This document shows positions 5,631 to 62,995 of a stretch of DNA of 64,000 nucleotides, piece after piece. The stretch covers positions 4,661,001 to 4,725,000 of the forward strand of contig NC_092568.1 in assembly GCF_037975245.1 (NCBI RefSeq), given 5' to 3'. The DNA is from Apostichopus japonicus (taxonomy: Eukaryota > Echinodermata > Holothuroidea > Aspidochirotida > Stichopodidae). The notes under the pieces are model-generated. The model was given only the letters and a program-made list of their open reading frames with translations. It had not been told where the DNA came from and made no database searches. The first letter of the stretch is position 1, and each line of letters starts with the position of its first letter. The translations under genes were made by a program, and so were the position numbers.

Positions 5631-5995
5631 TAGGAGACCTCCTTTCCCATTGTAAACAATTGGCGATAAAACAAATAAATGAATATGTATTAGTTATGAC
5701 CACAAACATTGCTTAATTAGTCTATACCAGGTGCAACATGTAACGTAAGTTAGTAGTTTCCTATCTATTACTTTATCCTATTGAGGTCATGTGCTTAATA
5801 AGAAGAGATCTTTAGAACATTGCATCATTGTTCACGGATCATTTCCATCATGCAAACTGCATTAACAGGGAAGTTTGACCGGAGGGGGGGGGGGGGGGAC
5901 TGAGTGGGGGAGGCAAAGCCCCATCGTTTCTGCTTATTATCTCCACTGAACGGGAACATGTGAAGTACATATAATCTCGTTTCAATGTATTTATT

Positions 5996-5999
5996 TATA

Positions 6000-6076
<77 letters not shown>

Positions 6077-6080
6077 TATA
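5996..6080. repeat. (TA)n microsatellite
   Basis: An almost pure TA tract that forms the left border of the Penelope-like fragment. Open frames reading Tyr-Ile repeats across it are not genes. Confidence 0.95.
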
Positions 6081-6577
6081 AGCGACTGAACAACCTGGCG
6101 GATCATTTGGTGAGGGCATCGCATCCTCAGCCCATCCCTGTCGACACTCCCGGCACCTACCCTTGTAACCGTAGTAGATGTAATACCTGCAGATATGTCA
6201 CCTCAAACACTATGCTTCGTATCACTGGCCCTAAAAACTCTTTTATAATTAAACATCACTTTTCTTGTATTTCCACTAATGTAATTTATGTTATCATATG
6301 TAAACGTTGTAATTTACTTTACATAGGTGAAACCAAGCGTAGACTGGCAGATCGTATTACCGAACACTTACGCTCCATCAAATCCAAGTTTCCTGGTTAC
6401 CCTGTCGCCTCTCACTTCAATTCCCCCTCCCCCTGTAAGATCACTGACTTTTCAGTTACGTGTGCTCTGTCTTCCAGAGGCACTGATATCGATCGTCTTA
6501 AATCCGAAAATAGACTAATTTTCCGACTTGGCACCTTATCCCCTTATGGTTTAAACTCTAAATTCGATTTGTTGTAA
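6080..6577 (+). pseudogene. Penelope-like element, C-terminal GIY-YIG endonuclease fragment
   Basis: The open frame encodes the end of a Penelope-like reverse transcriptase. It opens with NNLADHLVRAS and a Cys-rich PCNRSRCNTC segment. A GIY-YIG nuclease core follows, with VIYVIICKRC, LLYIGET and the basic KRRLADRITEHL helix. In this family the GIY-YIG domain sits at the C terminus and nicks target DNA. The reverse transcriptase half is missing: the frame starts directly out of the (TA)n tract, so this is a 5'-truncated copy. An untranslated tail of about 180 bp follows, including a TTTATACCCGAAACGTCG string, and runs into a second (TA)n tract. The domain call is firm; activity is not expected. 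Confidence 0.85.
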
Positions 6578-11556: not shown

Positions 11557-11670
11557 CACTGTAAAAACTAAAAGGGTTTATTTACCCCAAAATAGGGTAA
11601 ATGTAAATCCCGCATGTGGACACAAAGTATGGGTATATATAACCACATTTAGATGTGCATTTACCCTTTA

Positions 11671-12365
11671 TTGTGTCGCTATGCAGGATTTACATTTACC
11701 CACTATTTGGTTTCTTTTACACAATTTAGGTGTGAATTTACCCATTATTGTGTTGCTATGCAGGATTTACATTTACCCACTTTTTGGTTACTTTTACACA
11801 ATTTATTTGTAAGTTTACCCTTTATTGTGTTGCTATGCAGGATTTACATTTACCCACTATTTGGTTACTTTAACACAATTTAGGTGTGAATTTACCCATA
11901 TTTGTGTTGCTATGCAGGATTTACATTTACCCACTATTTGGTTACTTTAACACAATTTAGGTGTGAATTTACCCATATTTGTGTTGCTATGCAGGATTTA
12001 CATTTACCCACTATTTGGTTACTTTAACACAATTTAGGTGTGAATTTACCCATATTTGTGTTGCTTAGCAGGATTTACATTTACCCGCTATTTGGTTACT
12101 TTAACACAATTTAGGTGTGGATTTACCCATATTTGTGTTGCTATGCAGGATTTACATTTACCCACTATTTGGTTACTTTAACACAACTTAGGTGTGAATT
12201 TGCCCATATTTGTGTTGCTATGCAGGATTTACATTTACCCACTATTTGGTTACTTTAACACAATTTAGGTGTCAATTTACCATTATTTGAGTTGCTAAGC
12301 AAGACTCACATTTACCCACTATTTGGTTACTTTTAAACAATATAGGTGTAAATTTATGACTTAGT
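11671..12365. repeat. 77 bp tandem repeat, about nine units, subterminal in element 2
   Basis: The word TTGTGTTGCTATGCAGGATT or a close variant recurs at 11671, 11748, 11825, 11902, 11979, 12056, 12133, 12210 and 12287, exactly 77 bp apart. Each unit carries two TTTACCC or TTACCC words. The same short word is scattered over the last 450 bp of the other end of the element, suggesting transposase-binding subterminal repeats that became amplified. An open frame through the first three units is a by-product. Confidence 0.93.
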
Positions 12366-21421: not shown

Positions 21422-24018
21422 CTAAACAAAGTACTTAAGTGTTACCATTCTCTGATTTTGATTTGTGTAAATTGATAAGGGTAAATGACAAGCAAAATCT
21501 TCATAAGCAAATATGACCCATTTTTGTTGAAAACACAATACATAGCTATGGAAATGTTGACTGTAACCAATAGTGTGCAAAACCATCAAAAAAAAAATAC
21601 ACTTTACCACCTTTGATAAAGATTGCATCTATTTTGCCAAATTCATGCAACCTATTTTCTCTTGCCTCTAGAACCATGCAACAACCTTTTGCATACAATG
21701 AACTGTGTAATTCAACAAAAGCTAATGTATGCACTTCTTCAATGCTTGGAAATTGACTTTTCAAAGCTCTCTGAATCCCATCACAAAACTGATGTAACTT
21801 TTGAATGTCCCCTCCTGAGTTGGATGTCATTTTGTCATCCAAAAAATTCTGACCAGCTCCATAATAGCACATAAGTAATTGATGACGCCTTGCCAATGTC
21901 TTACACAAATTCCGCCTGTTTTTCTGCCTATTGGCAATTTCTTTGAAATATGCATGTTTAGCTTCAAACCTCATTGTCCAGCAGTGAACAAGAGGTCCAT
22001 ATTTCAATATTGAACGAGGGTAATGCAATAAGTAATGACGTTTGGGTTTAATTCTATTTTCAGGAAAGAGCTCTTTCAGAGCAACCAGAAATCCATGCAC
22101 CAAATATTCCAAGTATGCAACCATTTCACACGGTATAGAGGGAGCAAATGTAATTTCACAAATATCCATAAGTGACAAAACTAGTTCCCAGTATTCATTT
22201 CCCTCTGGAATTGAGCTTCCTATGATTAACGGCAATAATCTCATCAGGCACCATGTTTGAGATGCTGTTTGTTTGATTTTGAAACTTCCCAGGTTAGCAG
22301 TGGTATTGCAAGTTGGTTTGCTTTTCTGATCACTTTTTCCAAAGGGAAAAAGTTTCAAAGCACTGTTAAAAGATTCCAAAGTGAAAAAGCCATCCTGAAT
22401 AAATGTTGTCACAACCTTCGTCATTAATTCTGGAACAAGTCCTTTGAGCAAATCATGAGCTGGATCAGGTGGTAGACAACTGATTACATCAAAGTATTGC
22501 AAATCTGACAAAACAGATTTAGAAGCTACTCCATAAACATGCCTAAGACCTTGATTTTCCATAACTAACTGCACCTGATGTTTGTGACCAACACTTGTTC
22601 TTTCGATTAAACTGGATGAATCAAAATGATCTTGAATGTCATTACTACTTGCCATGCAAAATCTACATATTCTACCAGCATGAAAATGTTGCTGAAAGCC
22701 TCCTAATTGATGTGCTGCCAAGTTATCCATGGAAACCAAACTAATGCAACCCTTGAATGTAAACTCCTCCTGGTTTAAAGTTGTTATTGTCACCCCCTTA
22801 CTTTCTAAGACTTTAACATCCTCAAGAAGCGGTTTGAGCACTTTCCCAAAGCCATACTGTTTTATTAATCTTGTACAGCAGAGGCAAACAAGCTGAATTG
22901 ATGACAATTTTGACCGAAACTTTGGGGATAAATTTCCAAGAACAAAATAAAATGCAGCAACTTTGTAGCTGTTAGCTTTATTTCTAAGTGGGTTCACCAC
23001 ACCAAAATCATCATAATAAAAATGAACTTGGAGTGCATGTGGTTCCAAAGAGAATAGGGGATGATTTTGAAATGCTTCACCATCACAGTAATCCTCATAT
23101 CGCTTGTCCCCATGTCTAGAACGGGACTTCAGAACTTCTGCTAAAATATCATCATGACTTAAAAGACTTTTTAGAGTATCAAGCAACGGTACATAAATGA
23201 ATGTATCATCTTTCCCACAGGTGGAACCTAGCACATGTTCAACTGGCTCAACTAAACCAAAATGCTCCTTATAAAAAGCTGTCTGTTTATAGTCTGAGGC
23301 CAACTTTTCAAAGATGTTATTTTTCTTTTCAAACTTTTCATCGATAAAGTTAAAGATATCAGGATTTTTAGCCACTGTGAAACCAGAAGCTGAAAGTTTT
23401 TCTTTGATCTCTGTGCTATCATCCCTTGAACTGTTATAGATGAGTTCAGATAGCTCTAATATTATGCTATTTGTAACAGTAAGTGGTAGTTTATGCTTCT
23501 CTTTCATGCCTAAGATGAAAAGAGCAAAGTCTCTTTCCGTGGATCTTTCACCGATTTCTCTGATGTGTGATCCATCACCCAGAGCAGCAGCATCAATAGC
23601 ACTTATTCCAGTGGATTCTGCAAGACTATTTTTATGCGAATAAACCAATGTTTTCCGTCACTAGACTTGTGCCTACTTCAGTATCCTCATGCCCACCAGA
23701 GTTACTGTCATGCCTTATGTTAACATCGAACACTCTTTTATGAAATTTCCGCAGATGGGAATAAAACGTGCTGAACACCCGATATTTTCTTTCACAACCA
23801 TCTATTCCACATCTTATGGAGAAGTTGGGTTCAATACTATGTGAGAATCTTATGTGATGTAACAACTTTTTGAAAATAATGGTCCTGAAAGTGTTACATA
23901 TTGAGCAACTTTGCATCTGCAAGGATGCCATAAGGCCTAATCTAACAAAACCTTGGCTAGGCTTTATTAGGATGGCTTGGCATATAAACTGGACAAACCT
24001 CACAGCATTAATGCACAC
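21422..24018 (-). pseudogene. C2H2 zinc finger + CACTA/EnSpm transposase, frame-broken
   Basis: The minus strand first encodes two C2H2 fingers (CSICNTFRTIIFKKLLHH, then CGIDGCERKYRVF with SHLRKFH). That frame stops at 23632 and overlaps a 700-codon frame that starts without an ATG. The long frame has the animal EnSpm transposase landmarks in order: YYDDFGVVNPL, LGNLSPKF, SMDNLAAHQLGGF with CRFC, the PDPAHDLLKGL block, and LHYPRSILKYGPLVHCW followed by FEAKHAYFK. The Asp residues and the final Glu are plausible DDE catalytic positions. A second break lies at the run of ten A/T pairs around 21589-21598. One base fewer there would let translation continue to a stop at 21422, through a FHSYVL-type C terminus. 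It is either a dead copy or an assembly with homopolymer errors. The likely start Met lies near 23929. Confidence 0.88.
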
Positions 24019-28905: not shown

Positions 28906-29050
28906 CGAATTGTTTCCTAACGGTAACACCGACGGAATTTAAATGAGTGGATATTGCCTAGTCATAAGATTAATGCCTAGTCATAGATGTAATGTTCTTA
29001 TCAGTGGTAACGGAAAATATAATTGTTGCCGTTATGCATATACTAAAATG

Positions 29051-29465
29051 ACTGAAACCTATAAACCCATGCCTAATATCAGGCTCTGCGTGTCTACAGT
29101 GCATGTAACATACCGCAATGACTGAAACCTATAAACCCATGCCTAATAATATCAGGCTCTGCGTGTCTATAGTGCATGTAAAACACCGCAGAGACTGAAA
29201 CCTATAAACCCATGCCTAATATCAGGCTCTGCGTGTCTACAGTGCATGTAACACACCGCAGAGACTGAAACCTTTAAACCCATGCCTAATATCAGGCTCT
29301 GCGTGTCTACAGTGCATGTAACACACCGCAGAAACTGAAACCTTTAAACCCATGGCTAATATCAGGCTCTGCGTGTCTACAGTGCATGTAACACACCGCA
29401 GAGACTGAAACCTTTAAACCCATGCCTAATATCAGGCTCTGCGTGTCTATAGTGCATGTAAAACA
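29051..29465 (+). repeat. 70 bp tandem repeat, six units (copy A)
   Basis: Units beginning ACTGAAACCTWTAAACCCATG start at 29051, 29121, 29194, 29264, 29334 and 29404. The period is 70 bp, and one unit has 3 extra bases. Copy B has only one unit at the same place (55231-55295). A diverged single unit also sits at 27271 and 53471. Confidence 0.95.
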
Positions 29466-30183
29466 TAAAAATTCACGTGTTCAAAGGAGGTCACCGGTCA
29501 AACTTGGCCACATTTTGTAAAACAAGAAACGCTTCGCAAAATATACTCCTTAACCATAAGGTCGAGTTACTCTAACTTGTGGGTTTATGACTCGGCATGT
29601 GTTGTAGTGTCACCGTGATTTACGACGTCATAGGGTCAGAGGTGAAATAACCCCACCGATGTGACAAAATGGTCAACAGCACACACACCATGTATGATAT
29701 CAGAATATGCACTACTACAGTGTGTTAATTTATAATGTATAACGCTACGCCAAAGGTCACTTGATTACAGGAGGTCAAAGGTCAGACTTTGTTAAACTGG
29801 TGTACGTACTGAAGACTGCCATTGTACGGTTCACTTCTTTCAAGGTCACGTTGAAAGGAATATTCCAGCACAACAAAAAATTCTGGAAATTTATATTTTA
29901 TATGACTATAATTATAGCTGTTGTTCATATGCCAATAAAATACCAAATATCTGCAAGAGTCGTACCCGTAAGGAAGTAAATGATTATTTGAATAAATTAT
30001 TGGAAAGTTGAGAACGCAGTAATATAATATACCAAAGATCATGGGGTCAATAAAATTCAACACTCATGTACTTCACACTTGGTATGACCATCCACCCTAA
30101 TTTGGGATGAGATTTGCAATTCCGTTGATTGCCTGATAGGCTATTTGTTTAGGCATCGCTGTATTATTTACTTGGGCCTTAAT
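29466..30183. other. Intronic or upstream sequence, copy A
   Basis: No gene is seen. The stretch is conserved in copy B. It holds several GGTCA words, including a perfect DR1-type AGGTCAAAGGTCA at 29772-29784. Confidence 0.45.
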
Positions 30184-33100
30184 ATGTTCAAACCAAACCA
30201 CTCGTCATGTCACATTATCGTCTGCCATTTTGTCCTTTCAGATCGTTGTGTGTTTTGGCTTTGTATCACTTTGCATCTGCTGCTATCAGTTGTGCCGAAT
30301 ACATTAGGTAAGCACGATATTATAATGAACGGTTCAATGTTATTAGATATAAGATTGATCTTTGAAACATTGACGAGAATTGTATTGCAAAAAAAAAATC
30401 ACATCAGGATTTTTTTCAAAGTAAACAGATTACAGCAAAGGAAAGAAATATCATACTAGTAGTACTGCTCTTCATTCACAATATTGGATTTATGTTTAGC
30501 TCCGACTGTCACGACAGCGATTTTTGCTCCTCGACGGAATATATTCAGGCTTAATTTGATATAGACAACTGGATGGAAATGAATGTGTACTTAGAAGATT
30601 GCCATTCACTGCCTAATATTAGCATTTTGTACAAATAAACGTCTCCTAGAGGTTACATATCCGCAGTCAGATTTGACTCTTCGTAGGTATTACGATATCA
30701 CTGATTCATCCTTAAATACTTGTTAATGTTTACTCTTTATCTGCTCCCAATCTGATCTTCAAAAAGCCAAAATGAGAGGATGCAAGAAGCATGGGAGTGA
30801 CTTAATCATTTGGAAATTTTGTTTAATTAATTTACTTTTATTTTGTTTGTTTTATATTATATATATAAACATCAGTAACTCACAAAAGGGAAATTTGCAT
30901 TTAACAATATTTGAATACTCTCAATTTTATTTATCAGGGAACGTGCTCTCATGTAAATCTCAGCAGGGAATTGAATTGCACCGACCAGGCATCATCAACT
31001 GTAGTCTTAATGAATCTAATGACGGCATCTACTGGTATTTTGAGGATGACCCAATATCCATAGTAAGATTGAAGGGGAATCAACAGAAGGGCCCTAGAAG
31101 TGGTGATCTGACGATTGCTCAGAACGGTTCCCTGATATTTAGCAACGTAGCAATGAGTGATGAAGGGAGGTATCGTGTTGAAGCTAATATAGGAGCTGGC
31201 ACTGTATCCATGTCCATAGACGTACTTGTTGTAGGTAAGTACCGTGCGTCTATCTCGATGATACATAGTGTGGCCATTTACACTCTCGTGTGAGGCTATA
31301 TGTACCTCAATAGCAAACCCGGGTATACCAGACAACATGTTCGTCTTGTATAAATATCTGATTTTGGAACTATGGGAAATAGCGTTAAATACAAAATCAC
31401 CGAAAGAATATGATATCAGGGTAAGCTGCTATTTTCGTCAGACGTCATATTTTCTCACAATTACAGTAATCATGTTAATAAAAGGATAGAAATTGAAAGA
31501 ATGTGATGTCTTCATATTCATAAGTACGTTATATTAGTATCACGTTAAGTCAGACAGAGTTAATATGTTGAAATAAAAGCACTAATAGGCTGATTATATG
31601 TTTAAACAGCTTAATGATGTTTACTTTCCGAAGGTATCTTTTTCTATTTTTCTTGCTGTTAAGTTCTCACAACACAGATGTTTCCCGCGATAGATGGTTG
31701 TCAGGGTGATGATTGCCGTTTGTTTCGGTATGGTGAACTCAAGTTGACTTGTACAATGAGTGGACGACCAGCAGTAACTCTTACTTGGTACAATGATACC
31801 GCAGAGGCGCCAGTGACGGACGCCACTGAACAGAGTTACAAGGACCCATCCTCAGATATGTTTGTGTCTTCTACCATCAATGTAAAGATAGATATCGAAA
31901 ACGTACAAAACTTGACATGTATCCCATCAGGTTTATCAGTTTCCGAAAGGACGAAGAACGCGTCGGTTCTTTTGATGGGACCTTCAAATCTTGCTAATGT
32001 ATACAGGGCCAAATACATTGATATTAATGAGGACACTGGATATAATGAGCTACTTAAAAATACTTGTGATAGAGAAACAATGTTTATTCAAACATCAGAA
32101 CCTAGTGGTAAAGTCATTCATGTAGCAGATACATATGATGATCACGGCCCACTTATACTTACGTCAATATGTCTTGTGAGTCATACTTACACAAGAACTT
32201 CGATTAAATTGCTTCGTTACAAAACACCAGATGACGATAGTGTATCATTCGTTGAACAATGTCAAAGTAAAAACAATTGCATTATTGTTGCTGACGATGG
32301 TAACACAACCTTGACATGTGTTGTCAATAACACTCGTCCTGCAGCAGAAATCTTATGGAAAATAGGTAACCAACATGTGTCGATCATTGAAACATCAGGT
32401 TCTTCGTCATGTATCTTTGATGTGTGCAATTCATCTGTGACTATCCGAGTTAAAGTTACCAGCTATAACGGCCAAATCCTGTATCCGCAATGTCTGATGT
32501 GTCTTGTTACTCTCCCGGGATCTGGCTTTAGTGACGTGTCGTCTGTTACATTACAACTGAATGGTAAGAAGATCTTACTGAGTGACAGTAGATTAAAGGG
32601 AAGAGTTAACTTGGTGCTGGTCTTCCTAGTATTTCTATATGTACATTTGCTAATGATTGTATATCCTTAACAAAGTTCCCTACTTCCTTAAAGTGATATT
32701 CCCATGACAGAGAATATACGGCTTACACTTAAGGGAAATATTCCACACTATTAGTTGGAACCCCCATCGCAGTATCTTATCCCTAACTCGAGATATGGTT
32801 TCTTGAATGAACCTATTTTGACTGGTTAAACCTCCACCACCAGGAAGTGAACCACAATACAATATATGATATGTGATGTCATCAGGACAAATGATCTCCA
32901 AAGCTTTTCTACGGTTACTATAATCTTATTCTTTAATCCTTAAAACCTGATACATTTAGATTGCTCGATTAGCTGGCAACGTTCCCTGTAGGGTTGCATT
33001 CAAATGCAACTTTTTAGAAATATTACTTTCCTCTGTGGATATATGGTTGAAATAGTAACCCACATTATAAAACACTCTCTCCCCAAAAAGATTTTTCTTT

Positions 33101-34631
33101 TGACGATAACTGATGTGAAACTAAGACTTTTTATGACAAAATTACCAATGAAAACTGGGATCATGCATGTATTAAACCAGAATGATGCTGACTCTGCATA
33201 TTATTTATTTTTCGAGAATTTTCCTCAACTTACTATAGTTTCCGTTGGAACGTCACAAACCAGGTAAAAGCAAATCTTGGTGGACCAGTGGCATTTCTAA
33301 TTCTTGTCGTACCAAGCAAAAGTTGCACATAAATACATTAAGTTTCATATGACAGCAACCGCCGTGATAACGTTTGATTTCGTAGTAGACTAAATACTGT
33401 TAGTAAATTAGTACGGCTTTAAGACTTCATGTTTGCTCGCTTTTAAGCGACAATATTCATACCAAACGTTATTGGGGTGTATTAAACTCAATTATAAATG
33501 GAACTTAATCAATCTACCAACCATTTACCTTAGAATATACACTATAATGATATCGAATAGGACGATCCCACTGATATTTACACCAAACTCAATAATTATT
33601 TGATCAATATCGGACCATCTCTTTAGCTGATCGACTACAAGATAGCTATCACTTCTTTAACGTTTTTCGTCGTACTGCAAATCCTGCCAGTTTCTGCGAT
33701 GCCAGATTACATATAGTCTTATCTAATTTAAAAGTCATTTATAGCGTTTTCTAATTTCAAAGTATATAACCGACGAACAATTTGTTTTAATTTTCACTTT
33801 GCCTTTGTGTTTTTCTTTTTGCATCTTGTGCTTGTTTATTGTTGTTGTTTACTTTTTCCGTTTAACTTGTATTTGTCTATTGTTACATAAGCTAGTTATA
33901 GCTTCTCTGGATTATCCTCAACCCATTGTTTTTTAATTTACATTCATCAATTCTTTACCTTTAAGCTGCTTAAAGGTACAGCTTGTCTCATGTTTACTAT
34001 TCATACTTACTATGTCAAGCGACGATGGTTGAAATAAAGTTTTCCAAATAAAAGATAAGGAAAACAAACTATTATGTTGATAAACAAACACAAGTTCATT
34101 CGAATTGCCATAATAACCTATTACATTCTTCTGTTGCCAGATATAAAATATCACCAAATTTAAAAACAATCTACTATGAGGATGCGGATTTACAAAGGGC
34201 CGTAGTAATCTGTTTAGAAGTATTGCACCTTCACCAACTTTAATGTTGTAAAATATCAGTGCGCCCTGCATTAATTTGAAAGAAACTGTAATGGGCCCAG
34301 CCTTTGAAATGTTTGGTGACTCCTCGGATGGATCGATTGTTCTATGTAAGTTTCAGATATTTATTACAACTGCGGTAAGTGTTTGTTTTCTCAGGACATG
34401 GCTCTGATATTGTATAATTTGTTTATTTCCAGGGACAGATAATGGGAATCTTTCATTGGATGATGTGAATACTTCATCGGTGCCATTCACCATACCTGTA
34501 CCTTCACAGTCACCCTCGACATCACCAAATGAAGTGAATAGAAAGTGCGGTTGTCATTGGATCGTTATCAGCCTCCTGGTCATCAGCTTTATCATTATCC
34601 TAATCGGTGTGATAGCCTATATTTCAAGGAG
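30184..34631 (+). CDS. Ig-superfamily transmembrane protein, copy A
   Basis: Coding exons: 30242-30307 (or from an ATG at 30184), 30938-31234, 31664-32563, 34301-34345 and 34433-34631. All internal junctions are phase 1, as is usual for Ig domains. The first exon gives a hydrophobic leader (CVFWLCITLHLLLSVVP). The next is a V-like Ig domain with INCSLNE, YWYF and SDEGRYRVE, in which the usual second Cys is Val. The 900-base exon holds at least two Ig-like units (LKLTCTMSG with LTWY; TTLTCVVNN with ILWK) around a less typical middle unit, with several N-glycosylation sites. The final exon carries a Ser/Pro/Thr stalk and a membrane helix (WIVISLLVISFIIILIGVIA). The product is about 500 residues plus a tail. 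An adhesion or immune-type receptor is likely, but no named orthologue is recognised. The 45-base exon is the least certain. Confidence 0.8.
32564..34300. other. Intron of Ig copy A, with possible retained-intron tail
   Basis: If the donor at 32564 is not used, the frame runs on to a stop at 32668-32670 and adds a strongly hydrophobic end (VNLVLVFLVFLYVHLLMIVY). The rest of the intron is non-coding, and its short open frames, although shared with copy B, show no protein features. Confidence 0.45.
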
Positions 34632-37125
34632 GTAAGGATGTAAGTGGAAAGACGGCGGAAATAAGGTACAGTACAGTAAAACTGCGCAATCAGTTGACTA
34701 AGGGGGCAAAGAGTTCGAGTGTGGGGGGGGGGGGGGGGTTGCACGCGACTGGTTCAGTCATTTAAGGTACTTTTGCAGTACGCCCCGTTCCCAAACACTT
34801 GGATAATGGTAACGTTACTGGTATGTTTCTTTACCAAAATTGAACAGTTTTTTCCTGAGTTCCGTCCTCTAATTTGTCGAAGGGATAGTCCAACTAAAAA
34901 TATGAACTTGATGTATTGTAGCGAAAGTCAATCGCGTAGCCAGGATTTCATCTTAGGGGGTGGGGCGGATTCAATTGATTGACCTGTCAAAGAAAACGCT
35001 GCGCGCTATATCTGAGTGGGGTCCAGGGGCCCGCTATAGAGCCCCTATACAATATGGTGGACTTTAGAGGCTTCAGGGCTTTCAAATTTGATACAATCAC
35101 TAGAGACTTTAGCCATGTAAAATTGTATTCAAATGTTAAAAAAGTAGGTAATTTCTCGCTCAAAATAGCAGCTGATTCTAGGATGGTCTGGTCTAATCCA
35201 TGACACTGTGGCAGTAGCCAGTAAAACAAAACAAACAGTACGATGGGGTCAAGGTTTGATATCAGTTTGATGTTTACAGCCTAAAGCAGGGTTGCAATTT
35301 TTCCTGTAACACGACCGGTCAAAATTTAAAGAATAAAGCTGGCCAAATCGAGTGAATAAAGGCCCAAAACTGCACTGTTGTTCGATTTCTGCTCCTGTAT
35401 ACGTAACCATACAATTTGTTAATTTGCATTCCTTTTCTATAGGGTTACTCTGTGTAGGCTACCTACAACGATAGTTTAAACATACTGCTATGCCTTTGAA
35501 ATCTATTTTTAGTCATAAATGGGAATGAGATGTTCCATATTCTACACTTCTGAAACTTTGTGTGAGATCTCTCTACGTTCTTATCCAAATTCTATCCTGC
35601 TTTTGGTCCCTTTTTTTCCCTCTCTCTCTCTCTCTATTTTCACGTTTTCTTTCTCTTTCCACTTCCACCGACCTCCCCCTCTCTCTTGCTTTTCTCTCAT
35701 TCGGGGGTGGGTGGGGGTGGGGCAAAGTCACTATACCCTTAGCTGATAACCCTATGTGCTCTGTTCTTATACTGTTTGCAGTACATAAAGGTATCGGTCA
35801 CACTTTGTTCACCAAATCCTTTGTGTATTTTCCTTATAATTGGACGATTCATGTTTTTCAGTAAAATTTCTTAATTACCGAATCTAATTTAGAATTTAAA
35901 ATAAACTTAAAAAGTCAAAAATGCTATTGCAAGGGGATTTGACAATTGGGTTCACCTTTTTCGTACTCATTTTGGTCTGCACTATTCTTTCAACAGTACT
36001 GTTTAAGCAAATTCTTTGTCTATGATTTACTATAATTATGATTTAAATAAATTTTTATATGAAGCTTCATCGACTTAGGCTTCATTCACTCAGCCTTTGC
36101 CCAGGGCCATAGTCCATCGGTTTTATGACATTAATCGGCTTAACTGTATCGTCGTTGGAAAAAAAAATATTTCGGTTAAGCCTCTTCAAACGACCGATCA
36201 GTCTGTATGAGTTCACATGTGCGATGTTGAAATTAAGTAATATATCATACTGCAGCTTCCAAGTAACAATATCAGATAAACTTCGGACGGTCGATATAAA
36301 CGAGGGAATAAACTAATATACATACACATGATATTACAAACATGGTGGCTGGTTATCTCGTTGGGTAGAGTGTGGCGAGGGGAGGTGGATGGCAGAAATT
36401 AAAATGAAAGGATAATATTTAGGTTGAGACCTAATTTGCTGGTATTAATTTAAGAATTCCCATCAATTACGGATTAGCGTCAACCTCGAAATGATTGAAC
36501 TAAGTCTTGAAATGCGTTTTGTAACTTTAGTCCAATATTTCTTGTTGCCCACCAATGTCATTTGGAGGCAAGTGGGGGGGGGACAAGACAATGGACTGGG
36601 GACCCAGCCCCTCACCCCTGCTGGTAACGCCACTTGCATTTACGCTGACGGCAAACTACAATAATAGAGGCACAAAAATTGTAAAATATGTTGCTACGAA
36701 GATGGTTGCAACACTGTTCATGTTTCGAGGGGTTCGGGCTATCCCCTCTCCCACTCTCGGACTTCGGTCAGCGAATGCACAGACCTACACATATATGGAA
36801 ATTTATGAGCAACGTACTTAAATCATCGTCTCAATATATGTATACCCTTAATGTACCACGTGACTATAGCATCCGGAATAGTGTTAACAGTCGAGTGCAC
36901 CCCTCCCTCACCCCATCCCCTCCAGCATGATGTGACAATAATATTTTTGTCGTAAATAACGAGACAAGTAAATTTTGATCTCTTTCAGCTTGATAAATTT
37001 CAACTAAATTAAGAAAATGTGTTTAGCTCTATATTCAGTTACACGTTGTATTTACAGCCATCCATGGAAGGCTATGTAACCCTTGTCATATTCAATCAGT
37101 TTGCAGCCCTATTTTGTTTGTTTAG
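34632..37125. other. Intron or 3' region of Ig copy A with dispersed repeats
   Basis: It contains a poly-G run (34723-34738) and a repeat-like block at about 34929-35220 starting GCGTAGCCAGGATTT, a string typical of interspersed elements in marine invertebrates. A CT-rich tract lies near 35618, and a G-rich block near 36545-36655 ends in GTAACGCCACTTGCA. All are shared with copy B, so they predate the duplication. No exon could be firmly placed. Confidence 0.45.
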
Positions 37126-47999: not shown

Positions 48000-50960
48000 T
48001 TATCCTGTTCAGATTTTTTTCCTCTTCTCCATGATGTTTTTCTTTCTGTTCTCACCATTCTCTCCGCCACTCCATTTGATCTAGGATACCTTAGTGATGA
48101 GATGTTGTATGTGATTCCCCATGTCTCACATCATTCCTCGTAGGGCTTCCCGGAGAACTGACGTCCATTGCCTGAGATAATCTCTCTTAGTGATCCGAAG
48201 AAGATGAAAGTTTCTACTTGAGGTGTTGGGTAGTTTATGAACAACTGGGCACTTATAATGGTAATATGTGATTATTAAGTAGTCATCGTCTTTGATTTAA
48301 TTGGTCTGCAGCTAGGTTTGTCCAAGGCGTTGATCGGATGTCATGTGGTTCCCAGAGTTTCGTTCTGTTGACTGGGTTGACTTTCTTGATAAGTAATGCA
48401 TGCTTTAATCATGTGGTCGGAGTGACTGTTTATTTTTATCCAAAGGACTGACTCTCTTGCAAGGCGAGGTGTCTTTTCAGTTCTTTGATTTCCAACATGC
48501 AGGTGGCGAAGGATATCCGCCTGGAGAGGTTGAGGGATTAGGATCTGTCTGCCTTTGAAGATGACTCCATTTGCAACCCCGATTTGGTCTCTTAAAGACC
48601 AGTAAGGACGCATGTTTTGAGGTGATCCTCCATTTTGTCCGGCCACCCGGAATTGACAACTTGGGATAGCGAACTTAGAATTGGGTCATGGGTTGTTTCC
48701 AGTCTTAGTGTTTCTTGTTTAATTGTACCGAAGTTGATGAGATCCAGTTGGGTGGGATCCCCCTGCTTATCAATGACCAGTTCCTCCATTTTGAGATCCA
48801 GTGGTATGTAGCTGCATTATGTTGTTTTTGGGAGTCGGCTGAGCGCGTCGGAGAGGATCCTCGTGCTTCCAGGCTTGTAGATGACATTAAGTTGTAACCT
48901 CTTGATCAGCATCCTATGAAGCCTTGGAGATGCACTTGTAATCTCTTTCTTCACTATCATTTCAAGCGGTTTGTGATCTGTTTAGATTATGAAGGTAGGT
49001 AAGTATTGAATCTGGTTACCCCAAATACTAGTGCTAATGTCTCCCTCTCAATGGTTGAGTAATTTGCCTGTGCTGGTGACAGTGACTTCGATGTAAGTGC
49101 TACTAGCTTTATAAGCAGTATTGTTAAGCTCCGACACCTTTCTGTGATGAGTCTACTTCCAAGATGGTTGGTAGGTTAGGACTGTAGTACTGCAGGCATG
49201 TGTTGGGAGAAATAGATTGCTTGATTGCTGTGAATGATGCCTGATGATCCTCCTGACGCAAGTATGGTGTATTCTGCCTCAGAAGCTCTCAGAGAAATTG
49301 GTCATGTATGGCTACAGAAAATTCATGGCACCGAGAAATCTTAGCAGATCCTCCTTATTCTGAGGTCAAAGCATGGCATGGATATTTTCAATATTGTTTG
49401 GATCTGGGCTGACACCTCTGTCTGAGTACACGGACCCGAAGAATGTTATCTGGTTTACCTTTATCGTGCACTTTGAGATATTGAAGACTAAGCCTTCTCG
49501 CCGTGCAACCTAAAAGAGCTTGAGCATGTTGTCATCGTGCTCTGTCTCTGTTCGGCCGTAGACCACTATATCATCTGCGATTCCAACGGATCCGGGGACT
49601 TACTCTACAATGTTATCCATTTGTTACTGGAATACATCCTGACTAATGGGAAGTCCAAACTGGTTAATCGTTGAAAACAGTATCGCCCGAAGGGTGTCCT
49701 GAATGTGGTAAGTTCTTGGGATATTAGTGGTGAGAGTACAGACCAGTACCCTGCCTTAGCATGCAGCTCGGAAAAACTCTTGGCATTTGAGAATTCGGGA
49801 ATAAATTTCTCCAGAGTGGATGTCTTGTGAGGGCAACTTCTCAGGTTTGAATGTCATGGGTCTAGGAAAGCACCGAGTTTCCTATCTTTGTTTCGTTACA
49901 ACAGGGAGCTGCACCAGACTGTGTGACTGTTCACTTTACGGATGACGCCTTGCCGTTTCATGCTGTCTAGTTCAGCTTTAAGTTGCTCCTTGATATGGAT
50001 GTCATACTTTCTCGACAGGTCAATGCTGGGTTAAGCGTCCTCTTTCAGGCAGAGTTTGCCTGTGTTCGGAAATTTCCAATTGCGTCAAAGCAATCTGGAT
50101 ATTGAGTCATTAGGTCCTGTATTGATCTACTGGTTTCTGGTGAGTCTTTAAGGGTCTTCTGTGGAGGCGTAAATGTTGCATATGAAGAGTAACTACCTCA
50201 AGTCTGTCACATGTCGGCGGGTCCAGGTACGTTTACGACATAAAATCCTTGGTTAATCCACTTAGACTAACTATGCTTGTATTTAAGGGTAATAACTCCA
50301 AGATATGGAACATATGTATGATAGTGTGCCTTAAAGTAGTGTCTGTGATGACCTAATGATGGTTTTCTATTCGTCATTTGGATACATTGGACAGATGGTG
50401 TGCACGGGTAGAGTATTGCCGTTCGCACCTGTATCTACCTTCACACTAAGCTTATGCTTGCCCGGGAGCTGAGAGCATATTACACCTATATTTGCCAATG
50501 CTTCTTTACTATCCATAGTTTCAAGATACATGCTAGAAATGGTAACACTCTTAAACTGAGCAGTGAACTGTTCATCTCCACTCTCAATGGTATCGTCGGG
50601 ATCTTCATGATCAATTCCGTGAATCTTTGCCTGTTTTGGTGTTTGGCTTGGCCCTGTTTTGCGTCTCCCTTTATCATGACTATTTTTTTTGTCCTTGATT
50701 CCTGTTGCTAGTCTTACTTTGTGTTTCGACAATACTTTACCTAATGACCTGTCGTCTCACATGCTTTACACTTATCGTAATATGCCGGACACTGCCGTGG
50801 TGCATGAGAAAAGCCACAGGTACCACATTTCTTTTGAGGATTTCTGAGGACGCGGACTGTTAATCTGAATCAAGTGTGTTAAGTGATCCTCTGCTTGCAC
50901 AAACTGCTTCATATTTTCTTCATTCTTGACGAACATTCTCGATACCTTTTAGGCGTATGT
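48000..50960 (-). mobile_element. Decayed Gypsy retrotransposon (Mag/SURL-like), gag-pol remnant, copy B
   Basis: Same domain order as copy A. A 121-codon frame (50732-50367) keeps part of gag and the retropepsin motif VDTGANGNTLP. The reverse transcriptase catalytic site, read near 49575-49560, still has the paired Asp (IADDIVVYG). In the integrase zinc finger (48646-48341), however, one His and the last Cys are lost (ITYQ for STCQ). Copy A shows the opposite pattern. No LTRs are visible. Confidence 0.85.
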
Positions 50961-53293: not shown

Positions 53294-56007
53294 TCCCTAC
53301 ATAATCAGAGGAGAACAGCGTTCATGAACTTCTCCTTAACCATAAAAATGGGTGGATAATTGGCTGGTCATACGATGTAGTGTTCGTATTACTTACCGAC
53401 TTCATATACTAAAAGGTCAGAGTTACAGGGAAAAAAAAGCATGTTGGCCGTTATTCATATATACCCATATGACTGAAACCTTTAAACCCATGCCTAGTAT
53501 AAGACTCTGTATATCTATACAGCGGTACGGTATTTACTTGTCAGTACCGTACATAAAATCATTATAACATATTATGCACTGTTTCAGTTATTTGCATATC
53601 GATTAAGTTTGATCGATATCGACTTTTGTTTGGCGCCGCTCTTTTGGCGACGCAATTGTTCTCTCCTTTCCTTACCGTCTTTTAATATACCTTATATGGA
53701 CACTTTTCTGTATTTTGTTTGTGCAATATGTATGTAATGGCTTGGAGGGTTGTCTTGGTGATGTTATAACTCACATTATGTCTATGCTCTGAGAAAAACA
53801 ACCAGTTCATTTCACCAGGAAAGACTTCATAGGCTGAGCTACATTCTCTATGTAGTCAGACAATGGCGTGTATACATTCAGCTATATAGACTCTCCAAAA
53901 GAAATTCGAAAAAGGAAACGAGATAAAGCAGGAGGGATGAGGAAACGATTGCGCCGTAAGAAATATAAACCGTATTTGCCATCGATTTTAATGGGTTTCG
54001 AACAAATTCTGAGCTATAAAAGGGTTGCTAATGTTAAATGTGTACAACAGTATTGTAACGCAAGCATACTATCCTTTACTGAGACCGGGCTCACAAATCA
54101 CCACATGCATTGATGCCTATTTGTCTATTGAAGGTTTTAGATTGTTACGAGTATGGTTGGCCACAATGGACAACATTCAATATATTCGATTAAATGCTGC
54201 TTGTAATTTGATTTAATGATGACAATTTTTTTTCGATTTTTTTTCGGAGGCAATTTTGTATGTCTACATAAAAATTGATCTAATGTGGATATTAATTCGA
54301 ATTCATACAGAGAGGTTTCCCCATAATGCTGGCATACATTCACATTAATGCTGGCAACTAATATATAGGGGTATTGCTAGACTGAGACTTCCTTAGATAA
54401 TTACTAATGAATTCTTTCATCCCTCGTACAATTAAAGTTTACAACAACAACTTAAGTCGTTTGCTCTCATATTGTGTATGTTTTACTGCTTCGTTTTTAT
54501 ATCTGATCTTACATATTTCTTACTATTATCTGTATACTTGTTCTTAGATTTATATATTTTGTTTTTTAATGACTTGTGCGAGTACTACAATTTTCCTTAT
54601 GTTTATGGAGTAATAAAGTTTAGTTTACTTTGAAGTCCATCGGCTTTATGCAAAGCTGTAGTTGCTGAAACATTTTTACCCGCAAATTTGACCTTTGACC
54701 TCCTCTCATCACATGACTTCTGTCGTTTTGCATTAATTGTAAAAGTTTTAGAATTTCGGCCATTTTTTCATGTAAACTGATGTTTTTTGGTCCCTAAACT
54801 AAAACCTAAAACTTTTTTACACACGTTTGGCCGAATTTGATCATTGACCCCTTTGATCACGTGAAATTTGGCGGTCGCATTAATTATTAATGCACAGTAA
54901 ACATGTAGAGTTTGCAATGTTTGATATTCTGCCTATCAAAATGACCATGTGGTCGAAGTCCTCAAACCCGAGTACTCACAAAGGACTCTTCATGCCTTCA
55001 TTGTATTCATTAATATACAAAGACAAAAGTCACGTGATCAGAGGAGAACACATATCAAATTTGTAATCTAAAGCATTTGACGAATTGTTTCTTAACGGTA
55101 ACACCGATGGAATTAAAATGAGTGGATAAATGCCTAGTCATAAGATTAATGCCTAGTCATAGATGTAATGTTCGTATCAGTGGTAACGAAAAATATATGT
55201 AATTTTTGCCGTTATGCGTATACCAAAATGACTGAAACCTATAAACCCATGCCTAATATCAGGCTCTGCGTGTCTCTCATGCATGTAAAACACCAAAATC
55301 CACGTGTTCAAAGGAGGTCACCGGTCAAACTTGGCCACATTTTGTAAAACAAGAAAACGCTTCGCAAACTATACTCTATAAGGTCGAGTTACTCTAACGT
55401 GGTGGGTTTATGACTCGGCATGTGTTGTAGTGTCACCGTGACTTACGGCGTCATAGGGTCAAAGGTGAAATAACCCCACCGATATGACAAAATGGTCAAC
55501 AGCACACACACCATGTATGATATCAGAATATGCACTACTACAGTGTGTTAATTTAATGTATAACGCTACGCCAAAGGTCACTTGATTACAGGAGTTCAAA
55601 GGTCAGACTTTGTTAAACTGGTGTACGTAATGAAGACTGACATTGTAGGGTTAACTTCTTTCAAGGTAACGTTTAAAGGAATATTCCAACATAACAAAAA
55701 CAAATCTGGAAATTTATATTTTATATAACTATTATTATAGCTGTTGTTCATATGCCAATTAAAATGCCAAATATCTGCAAGAGTCGTACCCGTAAGGTAG
55801 TAAATGACTATTTAAATAAATTATTGGAAAGTTGAGAACGCATTAATATTACATACCAAAGATCATGGGGTCAATAAAATTCAACACACATGTACTTCAC
55901 ACTTGGTATGACCATCCACCCTAATTTGGGATGAGATTTGCAATTCCGTTGATTGCCTGATAGGCTATTTGTTTAGGCATCGCTGTATTATTTACTTGGA
56001 CCTTAAT
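53294..56007. other. Non-coding sequence upstream of the Ig exons, copy B
   Basis: Counterpart of 27100-30183. It holds the LINE tail (54405-54632), a perfect TGACCTTTGACCT (54689-54701), a single 70 bp unit (55231-55295), and a DR1-like site with one mismatch (55593-55605). No gene is recognised. Confidence 0.5.
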
Positions 56008-59000
56008 ATGTTCAAACCAAACCACTCGTCATGTCACATTATCGTCTGCCATTTTGTCCTTTCAGATCGTTGTGTGTTTTGGCTTTGTATCACTTTGCAT
56101 CTGCTGCTATCAGTTGTGCCGAATACATTAGGTAAGCACGATATTATAATGAACGGTTCAATGTTATTAGATATAAGATTGATCTTTGAAACATTGACGA
56201 GAATTGTATTGCAAAAAAAAAAATCACATCAGGATTTTTTTCAAAGTAAACAGATTACAGCAAAGGAAAGAAATATCATACTAGTAGTATTGCTCTTCAT
56301 TCACAATATTGGATTTATGTTTAGCTCCGACTGTCACGACAGCGATTTTTGCTCCTCGACGGAATATATTCAGGCTTAATTTGATATAGACAACTGGATG
56401 GAAATGAATGTGTACTTAGAAGATTGCCATTCACTGCCTAATATTAGCATTTTGTACAAATAAACGTCTCCTAGAGGTTACATATCCGCAGTCAGATTTG
56501 ACTCTCCGTAGGTATTACGATATCACTGATTCATCCTTAAATACTTGTTTATGTTTACTCTTTATCTGCTCCCAATCTGATCTTCATCCGAGAGAAAAGC
56601 CAAAATGAGAGGATGCAAGAAGCATGGGAGTGACTTAATCATTTGGAAATTTTGTTTAATTAATTTACTTTTATTTTGTTTGTTTTATATTATATATATA
56701 AACATCAGTAACTCACAAAAGGGAAATTTGCATTTAACAATATTTGAATACTCTCAATTTTATTTATCAGGGAACGTGCTCTCATGTAAATCTCAGCAGG
56801 GAATTGAATTGCACCGACCAGGCATCATCAACTGTAGTCTTAATGAATCTAATGACGGCATCTACTGGTATTTTGAGGATGACCCAATATCCATAGTAAG
56901 ATTGAAGGGGAATCAACAGAAGGGCCCTAGAAGTGGTGATCTGACGATTGCTCAGAACGGTTCCCTGATATTTAGCAACGTAGCAATGAGTGATGAAGGG
57001 AGGTATCGTGTTGAAGCTAATATAGGAGCTGGCACTGTATCCATGTCCATAGACGTACTTGTTGTAGGTAAGTACCGTGCGTCTATCTCGATGATACATA
57101 GTGTGGCCATTTACACTCTCGTGTGAGGCTATATGTACCTCAATAGCAAACCTGGGTATACCAGACAACATGTTCGTCTTGTATAAATATCTGATTTTGG
57201 AACTATGGGAAATAGCGTTAAATACAAAATCACCGAAAGAATATGATATCAGGGTAAGCTGCTATTTTCGTCAGACGTCATATTTTCTCACAATTACAGT
57301 AATCATGTTAATAAAAGGATAGAAATTGAAAGAATGTGATGTCTTCATAAGTACGTTATATTAGTATCACGTTAAGTCAGACAGAGTTAATATGTTGAAA
57401 TAAAAGCACTAATAGGCTGATTATATGTTTAAACAGCTTAATGATGTTTACTTTCCGAAGGTATCTTTTTCTATTTTTCTTGCTGTTAAGTTCTCACAAC
57501 ACAGATGCTTCCCGCGATAGATGGTTGTCAGGGTGATGATTGCCGTTTGTTTCGGTATGGTGAACTCAAGTTGACTTGTACAATGAGTGGACGACCAGCA
57601 GTAACTCTTACTTGGTACAATGATACCGCAGAGGCGCCAGTGACGGACGCCACTGAACAGAGTTACAAGGACCCATCCTCAGATATGTTTGTGTCTTCTT
57701 CTACCATCAATGTAAAGATAGATATCGAAAACGTACAAAACTTGACATGTATCCCATCAGGTTTATCAGTTTCCGAAAGGACGAAGAACGCGTCGGTTCT
57801 TTTGATGGGACCTTCAAATCTTGCTAATGTATACAGGGCCAAATACATTGATATTAATGAGGACACTGGATATAATGAGCTACTAAAAAATACTTGTGAT
57901 AGAGAAACAATGCTAATTGAAACATCAGAACCTAGTGGCAAAGTCGTTCATGTAGCAGATAAATATGATGATCACGGCCCACTTGTACTTACGTCAATGT
58001 GTCCTGAGAATAATACTTACACAAGAACTTCGATTAAGTTGCTTCGTTACAAAACACCAGATGACAATAGTGTATCATTCGTTGAACAATGTCAAAGTAA
58101 AAACAATTGCATTATTGTTGCTGACGATGGTAACACAACCTTGACATGTGTTGTCAATAACACTCGTCCTGCAGCAGAAATCTTATGGAAAATAGGTAAC
58201 CAACATGTGTCGATCATTGAAACATCAGGTTCTTCGTCATGTATCTTTGATGTGTGCAATTCATCTGTGACTATCCGAGTTTAAGTTACCAGCTATAACG
58301 GCCAAATCCTGTATCCGCAATGTCTGATGTGTCTTGTTACTCTCCCGGGATCTGGCTTTAGTGACGTGTCGTCTGTTACATTACAACTGAATGGTAAGAA
58401 GATCTTACTGAGTGACAGTAGATTAAAGGGAAGAGTTAACTTGGTGCTGGTCTTCCTAGTATTTCTATATGTACATTTGCTAATGATTGTATATCCTTAA
58501 CAAAGTTCCCTACTTCCTTAAAGTGATATTCCCATGACAGAGAATATACGGCTTACACTTAAGGGAAATATTCCACACTATTAGTTGGAACCCCCATCGC
58601 AGTATCTTGTCCCTAACTCGAGATATGGTTTCTTGAATGAACCTATTTTGACTGGTTAAACCACCACCAGGAAGTGAACCACAATACAATATATGATATG
58701 TGATGTCATCAGGACAAATGATCTTCAAAGCTTTTCTACGGTTACTATAATCTTATTCTTTAATCCTTAAAACCTGATACATTTAGATTGCTTGATTAGC
58801 TGGCAACGTTCCCTGTAGGGTTGCATTCAAATGCAACTTTTTAGAAATATTACTTTCCTCTGTGGATATATGGTTGAAATAGTAACCCACATTATAAAAC
58901 ACTCTCTCCCCAAAAAGATTTTTCTTTTGACGATAACTGATGTGAAACTAAGACTTTTTATGACAAAATTACCAATGAAAACTGGGATCATGCATGTATT

Positions 59001-60458
59001 AAACCAGAATGATGCTGACTCTGCATATTATTTATTTTTCGAGAATTTTCCTCAACTTACTATAGTTTCCGTTGGAACGTCACAAACCAGGTAAAAGCAA
59101 ATCTTGGTGGACCAGTGGCATTTCTAATTCTTGTCGTACCAAGCAAAAGTTGCACATAAATACATTAAGTTTCATATGACAGCAACCGCCGTGACAACGT
59201 TTGATTTCGTAGTAGACTAAATACTGTTAGTAAATTAGTACGGCTTTAAGACTTCATGTTTGGTCGCTTTTAAGCGACAATATTCATACCAAACGTTATT
59301 GGGGTGTATTAAACTCAATTATAAATGGAACTTAATCAATCTACCAACCATTTACCTTAGAATATACACTATAATGATATCGAATAGGACGATCCCACTG
59401 ATATTTACACCAAACTCAATAATTATTTGATCAATATCGGACCCACTCTTTAGCTGATCGACTACAAGATAGCTATCACTTCTTTAACGTTTTTCGTCGT
59501 ACTGCAAATCCTGCCAGTTTCTGCGATGCCAGATTACATATAGTCTTATCTAATTTAAAAGTCATTTATAGCGTTTTCTAATTTCAAAGTATATAACCGA
59601 CGAACAATTTGTTTCAATTTTCACTTTGCCTTTGTGTTTTTCTTTTTGCATCTTGTGCTTGTTTATTGTTGTTGTTTACTTTTTCCGTTTACCTTGTATT
59701 TGTCTATTGTTACATAAGCTAGTTATACCTTCTCTGGATTATCCTCAACCCATTGTTTTTTAATTTACATTCATCAATTCTTTACCTTTAAGCTGCTTAA
59801 AGGTACAGCTTGTCTCATGTTTACTATTCATACTTACTATGTCAAGCGACGATGGTTGAAATAAAGTTTTCCAAATAAAAGATAAGGAAAACAAACTATT
59901 ATGTTGATAAACAAACACAAGTTCATTCGAATTGCCATAATAACCTATTACATTCTTCTGTTGCCAGATATAAAATATCACCAAATTTAAAAACAATCTA
60001 CTATGAGGATGCGGATTTACAAAGGGCCGTAGTAATCTGTTTAGAAGTATTGCACCTTCACCAACTTTAATGTTGTAAAATATCAGTGCGCCCTGCATTA
60101 ATTTGAAAGAAACTGTAATGGGCCCAGCCTTTGAAATGTTTGGTGACTCCTCGGATGGATCGATTGTTCTATGTAAGTTTCAGATATTTATTACAACTGC
60201 GGTAAGTGTTTGTTTTCTCAGAACATGGCTCTGATATTGTATAATTTGTTTATTTCCAGGGACAGATAATGGGAATCTTTCATTGGATGATGTGAATACT
60301 TCATCGGTGCCATTCACCATACCTGTACCTTCACAGTCACCCTCGACATCACCAAATGAAGTGAATAGAAAGTGCGGTTGTCATTGGATCGTTATCAGCC
60401 TCCTGGTCATCAGCTTTATCATTATCCTAATCGGTGTGATAGCCTATATTTCAAGGAG
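56008..60458 (+). pseudogene. Ig-superfamily gene, copy B, with premature stop
   Basis: The exons match copy A: 56066-56131 (or from ATG 56008), 56771-57067, 57491-58393, 60128-60172 and 60260-60458, with the same phases. The first Ig exon encodes exactly the same residues as copy A. In the long exon, codon AAA of copy A is TAA at 58282-58284, inside the last Ig-like unit, so the stalk and membrane helix are lost. The result could be a secreted protein with leader, V-like domain and most of the following units, or simply a dying copy degraded by nonsense-mediated decay. There is one extra Ser codon, and a cluster of replacements occurs between about 57911 and 58068. The membrane exon downstream is still open. 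Confidence 0.75.
58394..60127. other. Intron of Ig copy B
   Basis: Closely matches 32564-34300, including the hydrophobic read-through frame. It has only scattered substitutions relative to copy A. Confidence 0.5.
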
Positions 60459-62995
60459 GTAAGGATGTAAGTGGAAAGACGGCGGAAATAAGGTACAGTA
60501 CAGTAAAACTGCGCAATCAGTTGACTAAGGGGGCAAAGAGTTCGAGTGTGGGGGGGGGGGTTGCACGCGACTGGTTCAGTCATTTAAGGTACTTTTGCAG
60601 TACGCCCCGTTCCCAAACACTTGGATAATGGTAACGTTACTGGTATGTTTCTTTACCAAAATTGAACAGATTTTTCCTGAGTTCCGTCCTCTAATTTGTC
60701 GAAGGGATAGTCCAACTAAAAATATGAACTTGATGCATTGTAGCGAAAGTCAATCGCGTAGCCAGGATTTCATCTTAGGGGGTGGGGCGGATTCAATTGA
60801 TTGACCTGTCAAAGAAAACGCTGCGCGCTATATCTGAGTGGGGTCCAGGGGCCCGCTATAGAGCCCCTATACAATATGGTGGACTTTAGAGGCTTCAGGG
60901 CTTTCAAATTTGATACAATCACTGGAGACTTTAGCCATGTAAAATTGTATCCAAATGTTAAAAAAGTAGGTAATTTCTCGCTCAAAATAGCAGCTAATTC
61001 TAGGATGGTCTGGTCTAATCCATGACACTGTGGCAGTAGCCAGTAAAACAAAACAAACAGTACGATGGGGTCAAGGTTTGATATCAGTTTGATGTTTACA
61101 GCCTACAGCAGGGTTGCAATTTTTTCTGTAACACAATCGGCCAAAATTTAAAGAATAAAGCTGGCCAAATCGAGTGAATAAATGCCCAAAACTGCACTTT
61201 TGTTCGATTTCTGCTCCTGTATACGTAACCATACAATTTGTTAATTCGCATTCCTTTTCTATAGGGTTACTCTATGTAGGCTACCTACAGCAATAGCTTA
61301 AACAAACTGCTATGCCTTTGAAACCTATTTTTTGTCATAAATGGGAATGAGATGTTCCGTATTCTACACTTCTGAAACTTTGTGTGAGATCTCTCTACGT
61401 TCTTATCCAAATTCTATCCAGCTTTGGGTCATTTTTTCCCTCTCTCTCTCTCCACCTCTCTCTCTCTCTCTCTCTCTTTCTCTCCATCTCTCTCTTTATT
61501 TTCACGTTTTCTTTCTCTTTCCACTTCCACCGACCTCCCCCTCTCTCTTGCTTTTCTCTCATTCGGGGTGGGTGGGGGTGGGGCAAAGTCACTATACCCT
61601 TAGCTGATAACCCTATGTGCTCTGTTCTTATACTGTTTGCAGTACATAAAGGTATCGGTCACACTTTCTTCACCAAATCCTTTATGTATTTTCCTTATAA
61701 TTGGACGATTCATGTTTTTCAGTAAAATTTCTTAATTACCGAATCTAATTTAGAATTTAAAATAAACTTAAAAAAAATAAAAAATGCTATTGCAAGGGGA
61801 TTTGACAATTGGGTTCACCTTTTTCGTACTCATTTTGGTCTGGAATATTTTTTCAACAGTACTGTTTAAGCAAATTCTTTGTCTATGATTTACTATAATT
61901 ATGATTTAAATAAATTTTTTTTATATGAAGCTTCATCGACTTAGGCTTCATTCACTCAGCCTTTGCCCAGGGCCATAGTCCATCGGTTTTATGACATTAA
62001 TCGGCTTAACTGTATCGTCGTTGGAAAACAAATATTTCGGTTAGGCCTCTTCAAACGACCGATCAGTCTGTATGAGTTCACATGTGCGATGTTGAAATTA
62101 CGTAATATATCATACTGCAGCTTCCAAGTAACAATATCAGATAAACTTCGGACGGTCGATATAAACGAGGGAATAAACTTATATAAATACACATGATACA
62201 TGGTGGCTGGTTATGTCGTTGGGTAGAGTGTGGCGAGGGGAAGTGGATGGTAGAAATCAAAATAATAGGATAATATTTAAGTTGAGACCTAATTTGCTTC
62301 CCATCAATTACGGATTAGCATCAACCGCGAAATGGTTTAACTAAGTCTTTAAATGCATTTTGTAACTTTCGTCCAATATTTCTTGTTGCCCACCAATGTC
62401 ATTTGGAGGCAAGTGGGGGGGGGGCAAGACAATGGACTGGGGACCCAGCCCTTCACCCCTGCTGGTAACGCCACTTGCATTTACGCTAATGGCAAACCAC
62501 AATAATAGAGGCACAAATATTGTAAAATATGTTGCTACGAAGATGGTTGCAACACTGTTCATGGTTCGTGGGGTTCGGGCTACCCCCTCTCCCACTCTCG
62601 GACTTCGGTCAGCGAATGTAGGATTACATAAACAGCTGCAAAAGGCACAGACCTACACATATATGGAAATTTATGAGCAACGTACTTAAATCATCGTCTC
62701 AATATATGTATACCCTTAATGTACCATGTGACTATAGCATCCGGAATAGTGTTAACAGTAGAGTGCACCCCTCCCTCACCCCATCTCCTCCAGCATGATG
62801 TGACAATAATATTTTTGTCGTAAATAACGAGACAAGAAAGTTTTGATCTCTGTAAGTTTGATAAATTTCAACTAAATTAAGAAAATGTGTTTAGCTCTAT
62901 ATTCTGTAACAGGTTGTATATTTACAGCCATCCATGGAAGGCTATGTAACCCTTGTCATATACAATCAGTTTGCAGCCCTATTTTAATTGTTTAG
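60459..62995. other. Intron or 3' region of Ig copy B with dispersed repeats
   Basis: Counterpart of 34632-37125, with the same GCGTAGCCAGGATTT-type block. The CT tract is expanded here (about 61438-61498, against about 20 bp in copy A). A 19 bp extra piece occurs near 62618-62637. No exon was firmly placed. Confidence 0.45.

Follow-up and report, generated by a model that had tools for sequence, protein, structure and literature searches.

The 64,000-nucleotide window that we analysed (C8:4661001-4725000 of the Apostichopus japonicus assembly) carries two neighbouring copies, A and B, of an immunoglobulin (Ig) domain gene, lying 26 kb apart. In copy A, a V-set Ig exon of 99 codons (hereafter Ig1; 30938-31234, forward strand), found by its Pfam match, is followed by a 900-base exon (31664-32563, forward strand) that matches C2-type Ig domains twice; the splice sites of both exons were placed by eye. 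The V-set and C2-set_2 matches exceed the Pfam cut-offs, indicating that Ig domains are present. Further downstream, an exon at 34433-34631 (forward strand) encodes a stalk rich in Ser, Thr and Pro and a hydrophobic, transmembrane-like stretch, with no Pfam match over the cut-off. A regular-expression look for tyrosine motifs downstream, made without a gene model, returned scattered matches. Copy B has the counterpart of Ig1 at 56771-57067 and a 903-base counterpart of the 900-base exon, and a TAA stop codon (58282-58284, forward strand) interrupts it upstream of B's own hydrophobic exon. Of the family's 11 full exon copies, B and E3479 each carry a single in-frame stop.

The assembly (672 Mb, 35 contigs) includes a mitochondrial contig whose COX1 has one uninterrupted frame under genetic code tables 4, 5, 9 and 13; table 9, used by echinoderms and flatworms, yields the conserved residues of this protein and points to a probable echinoderm. 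To place A and B within their family, we searched the whole assembly. At least 15 DNA matches to the Ig family were found genome-wide, all on contig C8, and at least 18 protein matches, 15 on C8 and three weak ones on C11 and C12. The family occupies at least 13 loci on one contig, comprising the 11 full exon copies, G3439, in which the exon is in pieces, and the partial copy N4864. A, B, C4747 and D4771 form a tandem series spaced about 24-29 kb. For copies such as E3479, the DNA alignment to A is limited to the 900-base exon and about 50 bases on each side; their flanks (L013-L020 compared with L009) are either unalignable or 75-80% alike to A. A sequence search of the PDB returned general Ig proteins only, titin being the best (2.7e-5). 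None of the literature titles and abstract openings that we searched named this Ig family, which does not prove it unpublished, and the portion of PMC13428168 available to us did not treat such Ig genes.

Across 6247 alignment columns, 91 bases distinguish A from B. A near-identical block on the forward strand (30065-35283 in A and 55889-61105 in B, with edges drawn from the listed substitutions) contains 23 differences in 5037 bases (0.46%) outside a diverged patch, which alone contains 15 in 182 (32055-32236 in A, 57885-58066 in B, forward strand). At the rate of the remaining block, 0.83 changes would be expected in the patch rather than 15 (Poisson p = 2e-14, with the edges of block and patch taken from the same data as the tests). 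A sequence-only reading of this DNA had called the patch a replacement hot spot, counting 11 replacements and three silent changes between 32078-32237 of A and 57905-58070 of B. We confirmed these 14 substitutions and found a fourth silent change just outside that range, at 32055/57885. That reading was also correct that Ig1 carries zero amino-acid changes between A and B, and it overestimated the background, which it put at about one base per hundred in the introns. Elsewhere in the exon, its single replacement (at 31681), the 3-base difference and the nonsense change at 58282 all held up, but the serine it saw as added in B is a codon missing in A, being present in B and nine other full exon copies (as Thr in K4877). 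The N-glycosylation site credited to B as a gain is likewise a loss in A, which reads SHT where the 10 other full copies read NHT or NNT. Our structure model of the 900-base exon (mean pLDDT 43.6; residues 87-208 below 50) was too poor to place the patch.

The patch resembled a hot spot because the baseline against which it was judged is A and B homogenised around it. Outside the block the divergence of A and B is about 4-6%: they differ at 57 of 1003 bases in the near flanks (patch compared with these, p = 0.18) and at 235 of 4576 in more distant blocks (p = 0.087). Relative to a wider right flank reaching 36862, where 94 of 2207 bases differ, the patch is elevated (p = 0.024). The patch is therefore at, or modestly above, the ordinary divergence of A and B, and it is the near-identical surroundings that are unusual. 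A homogenised background can in this way disguise ordinary paralogue divergence as a hot spot of selection.

Substitutions within the patch do not favour replacement sites. NG86 counting gave four silent changes over 43.7 sites and 11 replacements over 142.3 sites (dS 0.098, dN 0.082), and a neutral simulation (kappa 2) yielded about 11.2 replacements in 15 changes, compared with the 11 seen. Silent changes are themselves in excess in the patch over the block (p = 6e-5), and this joint rise of silent and replacement sites favours conversion as the explanation. The pairwise maximum-likelihood (ML) omega between A and B was 0.56 (p = 0.36 against 1). By exon part, ML omega across the 11 full copies, with the partial copies G3439 and N4864 left out of these exon tests, was 0.64 before the patch segment, 0.54 within it and 0.84 after it; seven near copies gave 0.61, 0.43 and 0.94. 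The sequence-only reading had offered diversifying selection at the patch, to be checked by a codon alignment over the genome's paralogues with dN/dS. The neutral ratio and the A-B omega run against that proposal, and in the alignment the patch segment has the lowest omega of the three exon parts, not one above 1.

Its other proposal, conversion from a third paralogue, fared better. We ran a 3SEQ-type exact triplet test on 990 ordered triplets from the 11 full copies. After correction 81 were significant and 10 of the 11 copies appeared as the child, that is, the mosaic sequence; many of these triplets reflect one pattern, in which I, J, K and M lie close to the other copies over the exon's first half and distant from them over its second. 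B, tested with A and F3517, is mosaic (p = 1.2e-8; multiplied by 990, 1.2e-5), with a tract at 32155-32236 in A coordinates, so that the conversion tract test suggested earlier is significant after correction. Over 88 bases (57979-58066, forward strand) B is identical to F3517 (L014:2776-2863) and has eight mismatches to A; F3517 lies 1.2 Mb away, and B-F mismatches are dense on both sides of the tract. The A-B block and this B-F tract are both stretches of near-identity with diverged DNA on either side. Of the motif types, CPENN occurs in B, C and F; CRSNH is shared by D, E and H, and CLVNH by I, J and K; M has CFVNH and A has CLVSH. A conversion from I, J, K or M into A, considered for the states they share at 32155-32177, was not significant after correction (uncorrected p = 0.0016); these may be old states kept by A.

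The support for third-paralogue conversion concerns the patch's right-hand part. The left-hand part, 32030-32150, has 7 A-B differences in 120 bases, a rate similar to that of the flanks (p = 0.84 and 0.36) but not to that of the block (p = 4e-6). Here both copies are 19/96 to 27/120 away from the remaining full copies, whose own pairwise differences run from 3/120 to 19/120 or from 8/96 to 17/96. Neither G3439 nor any of the nine further full copies proved to be a donor for the left part, which N4864 does not reach, and the left-part type of A and B is the least explained piece of the patch.

We consider it probable that interlocus conversion homogenised the block between the neighbours A and B, and that the patch was either skipped or took its sequence from a different copy of the family; the analysis shows the homogenisation of the block, the neutral ratio, the F3517-identical tract and the family-wide mosaicism. 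A and B would be older tandem duplicates, about 5% diverged, of which about 5.2 kb was recently homogenised by interlocus gene conversion that skipped some 180 bases. In its left part this gap would retain ordinary A-B divergence, and in its right part B would hold 88 bases of F3517/C4747 type, received or kept through a similar exchange. Replacements would then have moved with their segments, with no selection on them at the patch. From the pattern of differences we infer the order of events, B as the recipient and exchange in the germ line; at 29700-30000, B differs from C at 3 of 301 bases and from A at 16 of 298, a contrast suggestive of transfer from A into B within the block. Two observations fit this account less well, namely the excess of patch divergence over the widest right flank (p = 0.024) and the left part, in which A and B are farther from the other full copies than nearly all of those are from each other and for which the donor was not found. 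The account is also built on one genome assembly, with block edges read from the data. Unequal crossing over or a double crossover may have acted in place of non-reciprocal exchange.

Islands of this kind have precedents. In the portion of the paper available to us, the Tigriopus paralogues GOT1p1 and GOT1p2 are described as having divergence lowered by conversion and broken by diverged islands (PMC3728101). As in that pair, divergent segments here passed between paralogues; GOT1 is an enzyme gene studied in population samples, whereas the present case concerns an Ig family of a single genome, among whose copies at least three motif types have been exchanged. Human red and green opsin genes, in the part of PMC3924837 we drew on, are likewise homogenised duplicates, spaced about 24 kb, that carry a diverged stretch within an exon.

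The opsin comparison raises the possibility, to which we assign a small chance, that selection keeps A and B distinct by removing conversions at the patch. The shape of the pattern matches the description available in PMC3924837, the family retains the alternative motifs PENN, RSNH and LVNH, and in a codon permutation over the seven near copies including A and B, replacement diversity peaks at the patch, from codon 121 (p = 0.007-0.014). An omega near or below 1 is compatible with such selection because linked silent changes would rise too. However, the opsin peak is tied to known functional residues (PMC3924837, as far as available), whereas replacements are not in excess at the A/B patch by NG86, simulation or ML omega. 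The near-copy peak also weakens without B (p about 0.05) and disappears without A and B (p = 0.23-0.45), in which case the patch segment accounts for 20% of the replacement diversity and 21% of the length, and across all 11 copies the peak lies elsewhere, from codons 226 or 258. The stop codon in B makes its retained function doubtful as well. By analogy, the island between A and B would work like those of GOT1 and the opsins.

An assembly error, either a chimera or a false duplication of two haplotypes, seems quite improbable. Near-identical tandem copies 26 kb apart could arise in this way, the evidence is assembly sequence, and another pair contains a mismatch-free stretch. However, the window contains no N, the A and B units are about 5% different, with indels, outside the block, and a chimera would require two switches within 200 bases, one of them to a copy 1.2 Mb away. 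The mismatch-free stretch lies between C4747 and D4771 (L011, L012), which have zero mismatches in their last 3690 aligned columns, from A coordinate 33209, and differ by about 10% before it; it may be a recent conversion, a duplication or an assembly effect. The least probable reading of all, and a very improbable one in itself, is that selection diversified a binding surface through point mutations. The 11 replacements within about 55 codons would speak for it; against it, 11:4 is the neutral ratio, the A-B omega is 0.56, the patch segment has the lowest omega of the exon parts, and the right-hand part of the patch in B is copied sequence.

The patch pattern is real but ordinary for duplicated gene arrays, and Ig1 is the better candidate for selection. 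Identical in A and B, Ig1 is strongly diverged from that of C4747 (L011:1551-1853), with dS 0.092, dN 0.212 (z = 2.35) and an ML omega of 2.71 (p = 0.025, uncorrected, the pairs having been chosen after seeing the data). Other pairs, picked post hoc and also uncorrected, gave 2.22 for C-H (p = 0.058) and 1.35 for A-H (p = 0.49). Replacement-site differences between A/B and C4747 (42 of 228) exceed those in the surrounding non-coding DNA (349 of 4401) 2.3-fold (p = 9e-7). They cluster at residues 23-54 and 83-97, which we take from V-domain anatomy to be the CDR1/CDR2 and FG sides. These comparisons point to A/B versus C4747 as a candidate case of diversifying selection, against which stands an omega of 0.48 over 10 copies; pairs not among A, B, C and H ranged from 0.13 to 0.79. 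The test was run without D4771, F3517 and N4864, for which no Ig1 match at 1e-3 was found within 7.5 kb. Tests for diversifying selection in this family are better directed at Ig1 than at the patch.

A germ-line diversity system could be imagined, in which the V-type Ig1 diversifies (A/B versus C), exon-2 tracts are exchanged over distances of up to 1.2 Mb and selection circulates PENN, RSNH and LVNH; we regard this as unlikely. The SpTransformer (Sp185/333) genes of the sea urchin are not known to be Ig genes. In the part of PMC8634487 available, they form a cluster of echinoderm genes whose coding exon is mosaic, as here, and gene conversion is named as one possible process; their mosaic consists of elements present or absent, whereas that of the A/B family consists of short sequence tracts.

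Elsewhere in the window, a 703-codon open frame (21549-23657, reverse strand) has a weak Transposase_21 match below the cut-off. Fragments matching GIY-YIG (5975-6574, forward strand) and Integrase_H2C2 (48344-48685, reverse strand) above the cut-offs are retroelement-like, and tandem arrays lie at 11647-12356 (77-base units) and 29050-29465 (70-base units).
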